Positions 13,347 to 34,685 of a DNA stretch of 34,758 nt are shown here, in pieces. Under the pieces are notes generated by a model. The model was not told the origin of the DNA, ran no database searches, and saw nothing but the letters and a program-made list of their open reading frames with translations. Numbering within the stretch: the stretch's first letter is position 1; each line of letters begins with the position of its first letter. Origin of the DNA: a virus; the IMG/VR virus record IMGVR_UViG_3300023184_000324, positions 1-34,758 of that record. One strand, written 5' to 3'. The translations under genes and the position numbers were made by a program.

Positions 13347-13748
13347 ATGATAAATCTGACCCAAGAAAAACCAGCTCATAAATATCCTGAGTTAATCAAA
13401 TCTTTAACAGAATATATGGTTAATCAAGGTATGAATCTTAGACCATTACCTAAGGTTAAATTCATTAAAGACGATACTGAGAATGCTAATAATTTCTTTG
13501 GTAAAACAGCATATTATGACCCTAATAACAGCGTTATAGTGCTTTATACTATGAATCGTCATCCAAAAGATGTTATGCGTTCATTTGCGCATGAGATGAT
13601 TCACCATATGCAAAATTGTGAAAATAGACTTCAAAACATTTCCACAGATAATACAAATGAGGACAGTTATTTAGAGCAAATAGAAAAAGAAGCACATTCA
13701 ATGGGAAGTATGACTTTTAGACAGTGGGAAGATTCAATAAAAAATTAA
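13347..13748 (+). CDS. Small HExxH zinc metalloprotein (putative peptidase)
   Basis: A 133-residue protein with a zinc-protease signature: RSFAHEMIHHMQN, where His82, Glu83 and His86 form HExxH. A downstream acidic helix YLEQIEKEAHSMG (Glu110, Glu113, Glu115) could give the third zinc ligand of a gluzincin-type site. The strand before it (NNSVIVLYTMNRHPKDVMR) fits the edge strand of minimal metalloproteases such as SprT-like or ImmA-like folds. It is much shorter than secreted proteases and has no signal peptide, so it should act in the host cytoplasm or in the virion. Target unknown; options include an anti-defence protease or a structural relic. Confidence 0.6.
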   Translation: MINLTQEKPAHKYPELIKSLTEYMVNQGMNLRPLPKVKFIKDDTENANNFFGKTAYYDPNNSVIVLYTMNRHPKDVMRSFAHEMIHHMQNCENRLQNISTDNTNEDSYLEQIEKEAHSMGSMTFRQWEDSIKN

Positions 13749-16794: not shown

Positions 16795-17670
16795 ATGGAT
16801 ACTTTAGAAAAATTTTTACATAGCATAGCTTACAAATTCCCCAAAGGATATCCTGACATGAAAAATGAACAGGATGTTTTAATATTAGAAAATGAATTTA
16901 AAAAAATAGGGATAGATTTAAAAGAATTAGAAACTAATAAAAACCATTGGCAAGATAGAGTCAATGAAAGAGGTACAATATTAGATATAATAAATTTTCC
17001 TAAAGATTACCCTATATCTAAACAAGAAATAATAGAACAAATTCAAGATGAACTTAATTTAAGAACTGATAGAATATTAAAACTTAAAGAATTTCCTGCT
17101 TCTATTACTCATCAAATAGGATATAAATTAATGAAACCTATTTTAATTCATGAAAATGTTAGAATTCCTCTTGAATTAAAAACAGAATATATTAAAAACA
17201 AAACAAAAAAAACAAATATAGGGACTTCATATGTAGTTATAATATCTGATAATGTTTTAAGTACATTACTATTATTGATGGATGATGATGATCTTACCAT
17301 AGAAACTAATATGAAAGATCACCAAAAAAGAGAAGGTTTTACCAAACCCATCAAAATAACTACAAACCCAGAATACGAATTCCTTATAACACCTGAAGCT
17401 GAAAATATATTAACATTAATTGATCCACAATCATTACCATATAAATTAAGAACAGATTATAGAAAAGGAGCTGATTTTGAACATGATACTTATGGTAAAG
17501 GAACAATAATAAATACATCTGCTGGTAGTGGAGGAAAAGGAGATAGTAGAGGTAAATTAGAATGGGTAGAAGTAGATTTTGGTAAACCATATGTACAAGG
17601 AGGTCAACTTAAAAAAACTCGCATAATTAATAATATTTATACTTTACTTTCACCTGATGTAGATATTTAA
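16795..17670 (+). CDS. Hypothetical phage protein with KFPKGYPDM N-terminus and SH3-like C-terminus
   Basis: A 291-residue protein without a firm assignment. The N-terminus (LEKFLHSIAYKFPKGYPDM, then NEQDVLILENEF) is a short helical module that I recall at the start of diverse phage proteins. Residues ~50-110 contain HWQDRVNERGTI, a His/Arg cluster that could be an active or nucleic-acid-binding site. A middle region (TSYVVIISDNVLSTLLLLM) is beta-rich. The C-terminus (HDTYGKGTIINTSAG, then LEWVEVDFGKPYVQGGQL) resembles the small SH3-like nucleic-acid binding domain found at the end of UvrD-type helicases, where H-x-x-F-G-x-G-x-V opens the fold. Together these hint at a nucleic-acid binding protein; function is unproven. 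Confidence 0.45.
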   Translation: MDTLEKFLHSIAYKFPKGYPDMKNEQDVLILENEFKKIGIDLKELETNKNHWQDRVNERGTILDIINFPKDYPISKQEIIEQIQDELNLRTDRILKLKEFPASITHQIGYKLMKPILIHENVRIPLELKTEYIKNKTKKTNIGTSYVVIISDNVLSTLLLLMDDDDLTIETNMKDHQKREGFTKPIKITTNPEYEFLITPEAENILTLIDPQSLPYKLRTDYRKGADFEHDTYGKGTIINTSAGSGGKGDSRGKLEWVEVDFGKPYVQGGQLKKTRIINNIYTLLSPDVDI

Positions 17671-19349: not shown

Positions 19350-19808
19350 ATGATCAAATTAATAGATATACTAAAAGAAATAACACAATTTTCTAATTGG
19401 AGAATGCCTTCTTTATCTAAACTTAAACAAGAATTCAAGATAGAACAAGAAATAAAAGGTAATGAATTTTGGGAGGATGAAGATGATTTTTTAAACGCTA
19501 TTAAAAATAGTAAAATTACTACTATTACACCCTCTGAAGACCAAGACATAGACTACCGAAGTGGAACTGAATCATATGAAGAACTCTTAGACTTAATACA
19601 AAGCTATAAATCATACCCAGAATTCAGAAATGAAAAAACCCTAAAAGACATATATGATGGGTTCAAAAATAATCAATCTATGGATTATCCTATAGTAATT
19701 GAATTCGAAGATGGCTCAAGACGAGTATTTTCTGGGAATACAAGAATGGATATAGCATTTCAATTAGGTATTAACCCAAAAGTATTATTAGTTAAAAGCA
19801 TATTATGA
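19350..19808 (+). CDS. ParB/Srx-like domain protein with putative capsid-targeting leader
   Basis: A 152-residue protein in two parts. The first 13 residues, MIKLIDILKEITQ, are nearly the same as the start of the next protein and of the 74-residue protein at 24363. They form an amphipathic helix with an L-x-E site (LKE10), a plausible head-targeting leader. The C-terminal part (YPIVIEFEDGSRRVFSGNTR, then DIAFQLGINPKVLLVKS) matches the ParB/sulfiredoxin-type N-terminal fold, with a GNTR turn at 129-132 in place of the usual GxxR box. Such domains bind DNA or nucleotides, and some have nuclease or CTPase activity. Its stop overlaps the ADP-ribosyltransferase-like gene in ATGA, so the two are made together. 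Confidence 0.6.
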   Translation: MIKLIDILKEITQFSNWRMPSLSKLKQEFKIEQEIKGNEFWEDEDDFLNAIKNSKITTITPSEDQDIDYRSGTESYEELLDLIQSYKSYPEFRNEKTLKDIYDGFKNNQSMDYPIVIEFEDGSRRVFSGNTRMDIAFQLGINPKVLLVKSIL

Positions 19809-20368
19809 TTAAATTAATAAACATATTAAAAGAAATTACTGAAGGTAAACAAATAGGAGATATATATCACTTCACATCAACAGATGCATTAGCTAGTATG
19901 ATAAAAGATTTTGGAAATCTTACTTTAGATATCGAAGATGGAAGTGATTCTGCTGGAGGATATTACTCATTTACTCGAAACCCCAACTTAGGAACATTAT
20001 CAGAAGAAAAACACCATATCAGAATTAAATTAGATGGTGATAAAATGTCAACTAGAAATAAATTTGAACCATATGCTGATATAAAAAATGGAGAAGATTT
20101 TTTAAAAGGTGGTTCTCATTTTGAGGCAGAAGAAAGAATTAATTCTAAAGGAAAACCTTTAAATTTAACACCATATGTTGAAGAAATTACTATAATTGAT
20201 CCTGAATCATTTAAAGATTATTTAGATATGGCTTGGAAAGGTACTAACCAATATGATGCAATATTAAAAGATTATAATCTTGTTTTATCGTGGATTAAAA
20301 AAAATAATATCCCTTTAAAACTTATTAGAAAACCATCAGCAGCTGGAGTTAGAGTTAGTCGAACTTAA
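19805..20368 (+). CDS. ADP-ribosyltransferase-like protein with putative capsid-targeting leader
   Basis: A 187-residue protein. The leader MIKLINILKEITEGKQ includes ITE13-Gly14, an exact (L/I)-x-E-G match to the T4 gp21 cleavage preference. The mature part begins with GDIYHFTSTDALASMI (His22) and continues with GGYYSFTRNP (Tyr53/54, Ser55, Arg58) and HFEAEERINS (Glu107, Glu109, Glu110). This order, H then Y/S-F-T-R then E-x-E-E-R, is what an ADP-ribosyltransferase H-Y-E type fold would show. T4 packages the ADP-ribosyltransferase Alt in its head, so an Alt analogue that modifies host proteins at the start of infection is a reasonable inference. Catalytic function has not been shown for this family to my knowledge. 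Confidence 0.55.
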   Translation: MIKLINILKEITEGKQIGDIYHFTSTDALASMIKDFGNLTLDIEDGSDSAGGYYSFTRNPNLGTLSEEKHHIRIKLDGDKMSTRNKFEPYADIKNGEDFLKGGSHFEAEERINSKGKPLNLTPYVEEITIIDPESFKDYLDMAWKGTNQYDAILKDYNLVLSWIKKNNIPLKLIRKPSAAGVRVSRT

Positions 20369-22919: not shown

Positions 22920-22977
22920 TAAATATCATATAGAACGATTCATAGTTGTTCGACTTAATATTAAAAAATGGATCTGT

Positions 22978-23005
22978 GGTCCAATCTTACGATTGGGCCT
23001 TTCTT
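22978..23005 (+). terminator. Rho-independent terminator (short T tail)
   Basis: GGTCCAATC and GATTGGGCC pair over nine bases with one G-T wobble around a TTAC loop, followed by TTTCTT. It lies between the acidic protein and the FAD-dependent oxidoreductase. Because it overlaps the first codons of an upstream in-frame ATG at 22968, the oxidoreductase start is placed at 23037. Confidence 0.7.
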
Positions 23006-23036
23006 AATTATATTTAAAAGTAATTTAAAATTTATT

Positions 23037-24347
23037 ATGGACAAAAAAATAGTAATAGTAGGAGCAGGAGTAGCAGGTGTAAACGCAGCTACTAAATTAG
23101 TAGATAATGGTTATCCTGGCGAACTTATTACCATAATTGATATGGGTAAAGACCCATATAATCGTTTACCTGAGGAGGTAATGACAGGTATGCTAGGAGC
23201 TGGAGGATGGAGTGATGGAAAATTAACTTACCATACAGCAATTGGAGGACAATTATCTAAATACACAGGTGAGGAAAAAGCAATGGAATTGATGGATCAA
23301 GTAATCACCAACTTTAAACGTTTCCACCCTAAACCAGAGGAAGTACAATGTTCTGATCCACATGAGGAACCTGAATTCATCAAACCATATTTTGGTTTAC
23401 GTTTATTTCCTGTATGGCATGTAGGGACAGATTATTTATCTGAAATTGCTAAAAATTGGTATGATTATTTAGTATCTAAAGGTGTACAATTTAAATGGGA
23501 ACAAAAAGTAACTCACATTGATTTTACTAGAAATAAAATTACTATAGGAGATAAAAGAAAAGAACCATACTCTAGTGAACACTATGATGAACTTATATTT
23601 GCAGTGGGTAAATCAGGCATTGACTTTGCTCAACAATTAGCCCAAGACTATAAATTACCAGATGAACCTAAATCAGTACAGATTGGAGTTCGATTTGAGG
23701 CACCACAAGAACACTTTCAAAAACTAATTGATATTTCATATGACTTTAAGTTATATAGAAAATTTGATGATGAAGGAGTGTCATTACGTTCATTCTGTAC
23801 AAACAATAATGCTGCTTATGTTGCTGTAGAAGAAACATATGGTAACCATTCATATAATGGACATGCTAAGAAAGACGAAGCATATAGAAATAATATGACT
23901 AACTTTGGTATCTTGATGGAAATCAATGGTATTGAGGATCCATTTACTTGGTCACGTAATGTAGTTTCAAGATTGCAAGCATATGGAACTGGTTTATATT
24001 ATAGCCCATCTCGTACTCCATCAACTACATCTGAAGGAAATGATGTAGATGCAACTCATATTAGTTTAGATACTCTAATCCATGCTGTAGAACCAGTAAT
24101 GGAGGGTTATTTTAAATATGTTATGGATTTTATCCAAGACATGAAAAAAGTATTTCCAACATTAGGAAATGATTGGGGAATCTATATACCAGAGGTAAAA
24201 TATCTTTCACCTGAGGTTAAAGTAAATTATGAAAATCTTAGTCTTATAGATTATCCAAATGTATATTTTGTGGGTGATGCTTTAAGTGCACGTGGGATTA
24301 CAGTATCAGGAGCTCAAGCAATTTATGTAGCTGAATCATTATTATAA
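23037..24347 (+). CDS. FAD-dependent oxidoreductase (NAD(FAD)-dehydrogenase-like)
   Basis: A 436-residue flavoprotein, uncommon in a phage. The start at 23037 puts the Rossmann motif directly at the N-terminus (KIVIVGAGVAGVNAATKL, Gly9-x-Gly11-x-x-Gly14). GAGGWSDGKLTY matches the G-[AT]-x-S-DGKL signature of the COG2509-like FAD-dependent dehydrogenases. DELIFAVGKSG is the typical second nucleotide-proximal strand, and the C-terminal YFVGDALSARGITVSGAQAI closes the FAD site in the usual way. A middle region (SFCTNNNAAYVAVEE) fits the substrate domain. The electron acceptor and substrate are unknown. It stands alone between a terminator and a small leader-bearing gene, and may be an auxiliary metabolic gene taken from a host. 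Confidence 0.75.
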   Translation: MDKKIVIVGAGVAGVNAATKLVDNGYPGELITIIDMGKDPYNRLPEEVMTGMLGAGGWSDGKLTYHTAIGGQLSKYTGEEKAMELMDQVITNFKRFHPKPEEVQCSDPHEEPEFIKPYFGLRLFPVWHVGTDYLSEIAKNWYDYLVSKGVQFKWEQKVTHIDFTRNKITIGDKRKEPYSSEHYDELIFAVGKSGIDFAQQLAQDYKLPDEPKSVQIGVRFEAPQEHFQKLIDISYDFKLYRKFDDEGVSLRSFCTNNNAAYVAVEETYGNHSYNGHAKKDEAYRNNMTNFGILMEINGIEDPFTWSRNVVSRLQAYGTGLYYSPSRTPSTTSEGNDVDATHISLDTLIHAVEPVMEGYFKYVMDFIQDMKKVFPTLGNDWGIYIPEVKYLSPEVKVNYENLSLIDYPNVYFVGDALSARGITVSGAQAIYVAESLL

Positions 24348-24362: not shown

Positions 24363-24587
24363 ATGATTAAATTAATAGATTTACTAGAAGGTAACTTAGA
24401 AGTAAAAAATCTAAATTATTACCAACAAATCCTGGATAAGAGTAATAATATATCTTCATCCCAAAGAATATATCTTCAAAAAATATTAGATTCTATTAAA
24501 AAACAAAATAATCTAGCAACTCCTAGGCAATTTGATATATTAAATCGTATTAAAACTGGTAATTTTAAATATCATTCTAAAAATTAA
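24363..24587 (+). CDS. Small helical protein with putative capsid-targeting leader
   Basis: A 74-residue protein. The start MIKLIDLLEGNLE repeats the leader of the ParB-like and ADP-ribosyltransferase-like proteins, and LLE9-Gly10 is an (L/I)-x-E-G site. The rest is helical and basic, with a helix-turn-helix look (SSSQRIYLQKILDSIKKQ, then LATPRQFDILNRIKTGNF). It could be a small DNA-binding protein carried in the head. No family was recognised; the leader is the main reason to note it. Confidence 0.5.
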   Translation: MIKLIDLLEGNLEVKNLNYYQQILDKSNNISSSQRIYLQKILDSIKKQNNLATPRQFDILNRIKTGNFKYHSKN

Positions 24588-24594
24588 AAAATAA

Positions 24595-25077
24595 ATGGCC
24601 AAAATAGTACTTTTAAGTTGCACAAAATCTAAAACTCCATATGAAGCTCCTGCTCAAGAATTATACTCTGCTTCCCCAATGTTCCAAAAAACATTAGAAT
24701 ATGGTAAAACCCTTAAACCAGATAAAATGTATATATTATCTGCTAAGCATTATTTAGTTGATTTAAATCAAAAACTAAAACCATATGATCTAACTTTGAA
24801 AGATTTTAATAAAGAAGAAAAAGAAAAATGGGGAGCAGAAGTTTATAGAGAAATGAAACAACGTGGTATAGATCCTAATAAAAATCAATTTATATTTTTA
24901 GCAGGAAATGAATATATTAAACCATTACTTAAATATATCCCTGAATCTAACATTGAAACCCCAATGGGTGGTAAAAGATTTGGTGAACGATTAAAATGGT
25001 TAAATAGTCAATTAACTAAATTACGAGAAGTATTTAAAAGAATTAAACAATATATATATGAAAGTTTCAAAAGATAA
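24595..25077 (+). CDS. DUF6884-like protein
   Basis: A 160-residue protein resembling the DUF6884 family. Typical elements are IVLLSCTKSKTPYEAPAQEL near the N-terminus, MYILSAKHYLVDLNQ, PYDLTLKDFN, FIFLAGNEYIKPLL and ETPMGGKRFGERLKWL. The paired Cys/Lys at the start and the AG-x-x-Y motif look like active-site residues, but no activity is established to my knowledge. The last ~25 residues are a basic amphipathic helix (LREVFKRIKQYIYESFKR) not needed for the domain. Its end overlaps the next small gene by 20 bases. Confidence 0.55.
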   Translation: MAKIVLLSCTKSKTPYEAPAQELYSASPMFQKTLEYGKTLKPDKMYILSAKHYLVDLNQKLKPYDLTLKDFNKEEKEKWGAEVYREMKQRGIDPNKNQFIFLAGNEYIKPLLKYIPESNIETPMGGKRFGERLKWLNSQLTKLREVFKRIKQYIYESFKR

Positions 25078-25582: not shown

Positions 25583-26113
25583 ATGAAAATAGGATTTGCA
25601 GGCACGGTATCAGTTGGCAAAACTACATTAGTTAAAGCACTCCAAGAACTTCCAGAGTTTAAAGACTATACATTTGCTACTGAACGCTCAAAATATTTGA
25701 GAGATTTAGGTATTCCATTAAACACAGATTCTACTATTAAAGGTCAAATAGTATTTTTAGCAGAACGTGTTAGTGAGTTAATGTGTGAAAATATTATAAC
25801 AGATCGCACAATAGTGGATGTAATCGCGTTTACTAATTTAGCTGATTCTATTAGATATGATGTTAAAAAAGAATTTGAACAGTTAGCATCTCATTCATTA
25901 TTTGATTATGATTATATATTTTATATATCACCTGATGGTGTTGAAATAGAAGATAACGGAGTTCGAACAATTAACCCAGAATATAGAACAGATATTGATA
26001 AAGAAATACAAAAGATATTTATTATACATGGTAGAAAATTTAAAAACTTTTGTAGAATATCTGGAACTATCGAAGAAAGAATTAAAAAAATTAAACAGGT
26101 AGTATTCTCATAA
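25583..26113 (+). CDS. P-loop NTPase/kinase (NadR-like AAA_28 type)
   Basis: A 176-residue NTPase. Walker A is GTVSVGKTTL (Gly7, Lys13, Thr14) immediately after the first strand. ENIITDRTIVDVIAFTNLAD looks like the metal/substrate strand of NadR-type nucleoside kinases, and the C-terminal DYIFYISPDGVEIEDNGVRT, then INPEYRTDIDKEIQKIF follows the lid and adenine-binding order of the same group. Likely substrates are nicotinamide riboside or a (deoxy)nucleoside, but this cannot be fixed from motifs. It differs clearly from the kinase at 18815, so two P-loop kinases are carried. Confidence 0.7.
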   Translation: MKIGFAGTVSVGKTTLVKALQELPEFKDYTFATERSKYLRDLGIPLNTDSTIKGQIVFLAERVSELMCENIITDRTIVDVIAFTNLADSIRYDVKKEFEQLASHSLFDYDYIFYISPDGVEIEDNGVRTINPEYRTDIDKEIQKIFIIHGRKFKNFCRISGTIEERIKKIKQVVFS

Positions 26114-34076: not shown

Positions 34077-34685
34077 ATGAGCAAACAAGTATTAATAGAA
34101 ACTAATCTTTTTCAAACCTCTCCCATCTCACTAGTTGAAGGGAAGGTTTCTGGAAGAGGAAATCCATTAGTGGAAGGAATTTTAGCTACAGCCGAAATTA
34201 AAAACGGTAATGGTAGGTATTACTCTAAAGATCTATGGGAACGGGAAATAAATAAATACATGGGCTCCGTTCGAGAAAAACGCGCATTAGGTGAGTTAGA
34301 CCACCCTGAGTCATCCATCATTAACCTAAAAAATGTATCGCATAATATCGCAGAACTATGGTGGAATGGAGATAAAGTAATGGGTAAAATAGAAATCCTA
34401 CCTACCCCATCAGGTAACATTTTAAAAGCACTTATTGAAAGTGGAATTACAGTTGGAGTTTCATCTCGTGGTATGGGTTCACTTCAAGAAAAAGATGGTG
34501 TATTGGAGGTACAGGATGATTTTGAGTTACTATGTTGGGATTTTGTATCAACCCCATCAAATCCAGATTCATGGATAAAACCACTAAATGAGGGAAAATC
34601 ACATGTATTTAACAATGAATATTCTAAAGTAAATTCTGTAATTACCGAAATTTTATGTTCTCAAGGAACATGTCCTATATGGTAA
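34077..34685 (+). CDS. 21: Prohead core protease gp21-like
   Basis: A 202-residue serine protease of the T4 gp21 family (212 residues in T4), which matures the prohead by cutting core, capsid and internal proteins after (L/I)-x-E. The catalytic His is His76 in ALGELDHPESS and the nucleophile is Ser129 or Ser130 in GVSSRGMGS. Further family marks are GRYYSKDLWEREINKYMG, ELWWNGDKVMGKIEILPTPS and FELLCWDFVSTPSNPDSW. The C-terminal tail contains SVITEILCSQGTCPIW, with an ITE that may be a self-processing site. It follows the putative core gene by 12 bases and is closed by a strong terminator, so the scaffold and capsid genes expected next would need their own promoter. Confidence 0.9.
   Translation: MSKQVLIETNLFQTSPISLVEGKVSGRGNPLVEGILATAEIKNGNGRYYSKDLWEREINKYMGSVREKRALGELDHPESSIINLKNVSHNIAELWWNGDKVMGKIEILPTPSGNILKALIESGITVGVSSRGMGSLQEKDGVLEVQDDFELLCWDFVSTPSNPDSWIKPLNEGKSHVFNNEYSKVNSVITEILCSQGTCPIW

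Follow-up and report, generated by a model that had tools for sequence, protein, structure and literature searches.

The survey by Iyer et al. (PMC9503650) describes phage ADP-ribosyltransferases (ARTs) as often packaged, in families that include Alt/VIP2, Mod, N4-like and p0068, and a study of phage polyvalent proteins (PMC5512222) gives the ARTs of those proteins as H-Y-D enzymes. T4 Alt, an R-S-E enzyme of the Alt/VIP2 family, has an N-terminal propeptide with an L/I-x-E site. The T4 protease gp21 cleaves after L/I-x-E (PMC9026906). In the RNA 2'-phosphotransferase Tpt1, the His and Thr of an HGT motif touch the 2'-OH of nicotinamide adenine dinucleotide (NAD; PMC6333775). Here we describe an open reading frame (ORF) at 19805-20368 of a 34,758-nucleotide stretch of viral DNA (the window; positions 1 to 34,758 of IMG/VR record IMGVR_UViG_3300023184_000324), which an earlier reading of the letters alone (the sequence-only reading) had proposed as a minimal functional analogue of Alt. 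We computed the gene, its family and predicted fold, its conserved residues, the junction with its protease site, and the protease gene; from these we infer packaging, cleavage, NAD chemistry and a target, and consider it likely that the product is a head-packaged, injected ART acting on a host macromolecule early in infection.

The ORF (19805..20368, +) encodes 187 residues, a leader followed by a predicted ART domain. The 13-residue leader MIKLINILKEITE (19805..19843, +) is a predicted capsid-targeting propeptide that holds LKE (residues 8-10) and ITE (residues 11-13) as its two [LI]xE sites; after the cut site comes GKQIGDIYHFTS, in a predicted mature enzyme of 174 residues with the N-terminus GKQIG (19844..20365, +). 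Related proteins are encoded at at least 162 IMG/VR loci (iterated searches; 49 loci in an earlier round), and close relatives show purifying selection (dN/dS, the ratio of nonsynonymous to synonymous substitution rates, of ~0.06-0.14, with dN ~0.06-0.09 and dS 0.5-1.1). The strings YHFTS (H22), YYSFTRN (S55, R58) and FEAEERI (E107, E109, E110) stand in this order. In an alignment of 86 homologue cores, Y21, H22, R58 and E109 are invariant (86/86), T24 is conserved in 84/86, S55 in 79/86 (Ala in the remainder), E107 in 75/86 and E110 in 77/86. By this alignment the family signature is HxT...S(F)TR...ExE, that is, a His with its xT, a Ser or Ala, an invariant Arg three residues later, and then ExE; it is neither R-S-E nor H-Y-D.

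Conservation and likeness to the Tpt1 motif, whose HxT pattern is the same as H22/T24, mark H22-x-T24 on strand 1 (19868..19876, +) as a predicted contact to the NAD ribose. The alignment and an AlphaFold2 model place S55-F-T-R58 on strand 2 (19967..19978, +; model residues 40-44) and the ExE motif E107-A-E109-E110 at strand 5 (20123..20134, +; model residues 96-100), with E109 the predicted catalytic Glu. H22, R58 and E109, invariant as they are, make a plausible NAD site. The H-Y/S-E order proposed by the sequence-only reading is thus conserved in H22, S55 and E109; its Tyr is not, and R58 had been overlooked, while of the Glu109/110 pair it singled out, E110 is at times replaced. Some ART-fold proteins are inactive, and the domain here is small, which would suit an ART fold with a binding or structural role and no ART activity; we hold this to be quite unlikely: no computed result favours it, and the His, Arg and Glu belong to the handful of positions that never vary across 86 divergent homologues.

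We ran AlphaFold2 twice, with alignments of 43 and 77 sequences (the latter the window protein and 76 relatives), and obtained predicted template modeling scores (pTM) of 0.79 and 0.82, the second with a mean predicted local distance difference test score (pLDDT) of 84.3 (model m309e7b9547c7). In Foldseek searches of the PDB, both models returned yeast Tpt1 (7yw4) first, with E-values of 2.1e-4 (43 sequences) and 8.7e-5 (77 sequences) and prob 1.00, and the 77-sequence model reached a template modeling (TM) score of 0.66 by target length. Through this match the predicted structure shows the split beta-sheet core of ARTs, and the strand-1 His, strand-2 motif and strand-5 Glu are conserved in the ART order. 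Structure prediction and fold search, the checks that the sequence-only reading had suggested, thus agree with the ART fold it proposed, and the protein very likely transfers ADP-ribose. A search of predicted viral structures gave significant matches only to uncharacterised phage proteins; matches to an ART and a KptA of phages ranked lower and were not significant. By sequence, independently of the models, 18 of the 77 members matched the Pfam profile Tox-ART-HYD1 at E<0.1, the best of them at 1e-4, and other Pfam families matched at most two members each.

The ITE|G site coincides exactly with the start of the conserved domain. We examined this junction in 85 homologues with a KQ motif, which are kin to each other and hence do not count as 85 independent events: 83 have Glu at P1, directly before the domain, and 79 the complete [LI]xE, a motif whose background frequency in the stretches upstream is 1.6% of positions. 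The ORF, its leader and the ITE-G site that the sequence-only reading had noticed are real and more than chance. The modules upstream of the junction vary, from a 10-residue MIKLIDLLxE leader or a KFPKGYPD leader to ParB (ParB_N) and to polyproteins of HExxH or nucleotidyltransferase type. On a quick domain tree, with N-terminal classes assigned by motif, the short or long N-terminal state changed at least 11 times and the seven classes 23 times. One such leader is shared with another gene of the window: the ART leader of locus L003 is 68% identical to residues 1-44 of the ORF at 16795..17670 (+), with no identity beyond them and the boundary exactly at LKE. This ORF carries an unrelated cargo behind a long KFPKGYPD...IDLKE leader, the type that precedes the ART in L003 and L012.

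The window also encodes an S77 (gp21-type) prohead protease (34077..34685, +; PF03420, E 2.8e-33), the predicted processing enzyme, and such a protease is present in 11 of 12 related IMG/VR records longer than 100 kb, Bacillus phage SP-15 included. The locus thus has two marks of a T4-type head-processed internal protein, an L/I-x-E at the propeptide boundary and a gp21-type protease in the same phage. It is because of the [LI]xE at the domain boundary, the swaps of leaders and modules, and the co-occurrence of the S77 protease that we read the enzyme as packaged. The precursor would be made late, and its N-terminal leader would carry it into the prohead core, where the S77 protease would cut after LKE/ITE and free the 174-residue enzyme. 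This would be ejected together with the phage DNA; in the host it would bind NAD+ through H22-x-T24, and E109, aided by R58, would pass ADP-ribose to a host macromolecule (protein or nucleic acid) at the start of infection.

Several results weigh against a packaged ART. JA11_137 and JA11_138, homologues in Dickeya phage JA11, have no leader, so packaging is not universal in the wider superfamily. Such homologues would fit an ART-fold enzyme made inside the cell and left unpackaged, its leader an accidental or unrelated N-terminal helix; against this, which we regard as unlikely, stand the frequency of [LI]xE at the exact boundary over its background, the recurrent exchange at the junction, the occurrence of the same leader on 41 other distinct ORFs (below), and the S77 protease. 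As for the fold, the TM score to Tpt1 is just 0.48 by query length, the second Foldseek match of the 77-sequence model, DarT (7yk3), is weak (E 0.12, prob 0.63), and E. coli KptA, in a pairwise hidden Markov model comparison, aligned in the expected register but not significantly (E 0.075). The Tox-ART-HYD1 matches fall under the curated cut-off, and those that could be located start at the YHxT strand and span the N-terminal strand-helix part alone. The query-length score, and the fact that a single PDB match lies below 0.001, would also be in keeping with a wrong fold assignment and a protein that is not an ART; this is very improbable, given that models from two alignment depths have the same first match, that Tox-ART-HYD1 matches at the sequence level, and that the motif order suits the ART strands.

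Our favoured packaged ART resembles T4 Alt in how it would be delivered: an N-terminal propeptide that carries an L/I-x-E site, a protease of gp21 type, a T4-like head and predicted co-injection with the DNA. It also shares with Alt the Ser on strand 2 and the Glu on strand 5. It differs in size (a 174-residue mature domain against 682 residues) and on strand 1, where Alt/VIP2 enzymes have Arg and the family has an invariant His (HxT) in addition to the invariant R58. An hhalign comparison of the family profile with T4 Alt gave no match (E 0.61); with Arg in Alt where the family has His, the protein is therefore not a member of the Alt family. Tox-ART-HYD1 (PF15633) and Tox-ART-HYD2, the latter as described in the polyvalent-protein study (PMC5512222), share the strand-1 His, predicted injection, and the company of ParB and metallopeptidase-type domains. 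The family departs from their H-Y-D pattern, with Ser/Ala on strand 2, where Tyr is not conserved, and a strand-5 Glu in place of Asp; it also differs in a domain bounded by a prohead-protease-type site. Tpt1/KptA enzymes share the ART lobe fold and the HxT motif; the family is single-domain, so that the ART lobe alone aligns, and it lacks the winged-helix lobe and the Arg-His-Arg-Arg tetrad and has a catalytic-type Glu.

Likeness to DarT lies in strand 1 (YHFT/FHFT), in a conserved Arg and Glu, and in the Ser that in DarT1 likewise replaces Tyr; the position of the Arg differs, and the match is weak by profile (E 0.28) as by Foldseek. PF14487 (DarT) found nothing in the window, and no profile-profile comparison was aimed at DarT or Tox-ART-HYD1. 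A packaged ART-fold protein that acts on nucleic acid or RNA ends in the manner of DarT or Tpt1, or that just destroys NAD, in place of Alt-style modification of host proteins, is a serious possibility, if one we would not put at even chances. The closest solved folds are Tpt1 (RNA 2'-phosphate) and DarT (DNA bases), HxT with an invariant Arg and Glu recalls the His/Arg/Glu of DarT (PMC11543638), and ParB-like domains are fused to the ART or apparently adjoin it; on the other hand, R58 follows S55 by three residues on strand 2, whereas the Arg of DarT1 precedes the equivalent Ser by 11, and a fold does not reveal a target.

On its residues the family is neither Alt nor HYD, and on its domain make-up it is not Tpt1, so the enzyme is best read as Alt-like in delivery, not descent, and as belonging to a different ART branch. 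The functional analogue of Alt that the sequence-only reading proposed is accordingly supported as regards delivery, by the protease-site leader and the S77 protease in the window; the strand-1 His, the failed alignment to Alt and the nearest structures, Tpt1 and DarT, show that it is not a minimal Alt. Its suggestion of RNA polymerase as the target found no support in our analysis. If our reading is true, Alt-style ART delivery arose independently, out of a different ART branch, and is common among T4-like phages that have not been cultured; a leader with [LI]xE would then be a sequence rule by which to list packaged effectors even where a genome's proteins have no other names.

The 10-residue leader occurs on 79 distinct ORFs, 41 of them without the ART motif, and an [LI]xE ends at residue 10 in 73; the search pattern had preset Leu/Ile at positions 7-8, which leaves the Glu as the informative residue. 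Among the cargoes of this leader are a Zeta_toxin-family kinase and an NT5C-type nucleotidase, and in the window a small ORF (24363..24587, +) has the same leader type (MIKLIDLLE). The capsid targeting sequence of T4 IPI-IPIII is similar in its ~10 N-terminal residues, its L/I-x-E rule and its presence on unrelated cargoes; the leader here differs in its letters, MIKLIDLLxE, and in a wider cargo set, and its targeting is predicted. We give about an even chance to MIKLIDLLxE being a portable head-loading tag, with which a broad group of T4-like phages would pack an interchangeable arsenal of ARTs, Zeta-like kinases, nucleotidases and kinase-like proteins; in the head, the prohead protease would cut related ARTs out of larger polyproteins. 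If so, the injected proteome would be legible from sequence.

Several genes in related loci merit separate mention. A Zeta-toxin-like P-loop kinase with a MIKL leader (L027:873-1631; Pfam E 4.6e-10) is perhaps packaged too, as perhaps are two others with this leader that we judged by eye (L045:679 and L102:2124). Directly upstream of the family ART in L076, a different gene (1657-2028) resembles an ART of the KptA-lobe type and has the same leader (MIRLKDLLKE, then ASGNILYHATYK); Pfam gave it no name. In L062, L068, L035, L041 and L103, the ART lies within polyproteins with ParB_N (L062 and L068), CTP_transf_like/DUF5661, or GNAT and NT5C, with a Glu at each junction.

The family is widespread, has no name in Pfam, PHROGs or NCBIfam, and is by sequence distinct from T4 Alt. 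The window protein found no convincing match in those three databases; in PHROGs it matched no family at all, and no PHROG family matched more than one family member. The first close IMG/VR relatives are 51-63% identical to it, and a distant member from an isolate is SP15_261 of Bacillus phage SP-15. Remoter homologues occur in Dickeya jumbo phages, where they lack a leader, and in Microcystis phage Mel-JY01, where the leader is short (MIKLKSLLQE); JA11_137 as a query retrieved proteins of Vibrio, Rhizobium, Pseudomonas and other phages, almost all labelled just hypothetical. A tblastn scan of genome contigs with the window sequence and a search of plasmids found no relatives. We rejected as chance an endoglucanase, the sole match of a single-sequence phmmer search of the PDB, and partial Collagenase and GST profile matches; L004 and L005 of the first scan were set aside, as the match covers a nucleotidase stretch, not the ART.

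The window carries T4 portal and terminase genes besides the protease. The terminase shares 60% identity with its counterpart in Flavobacterium phage immuto, and the virus is a T4-like phage, probably with a Flavobacterium-type host, judging by this nearest phage; the Bacteroidota phage of the sequence-only reading fits. Immediately upstream of the ART, a gene with the same MIKLIDILKE leader (19350..19808, +) overlaps its start by 4 nucleotides, and it is 80% identical to genes beside the ART in L007 and L008. Its C-terminal SGNTR appears to resemble a ParB-type stretch that L060 carries fused to its ART, a likeness that Pfam did not confirm for this ORF. A few kilobases downstream of the ART lie a DUF6884 protein (24595-25077; E 5.3e-39) and an AAA_28 P-loop protein (25583-26113; E 1.2e-12), and the phage genome encodes a Pyr_redox_2-type flavin adenine dinucleotide (FAD) oxidoreductase (22968-24347; E 4.1e-8). 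A small HExxH protein at 13347-13748, with weak likeness to Peptidase_M76, resembles the module that L013 and L029 have fused to their ART.
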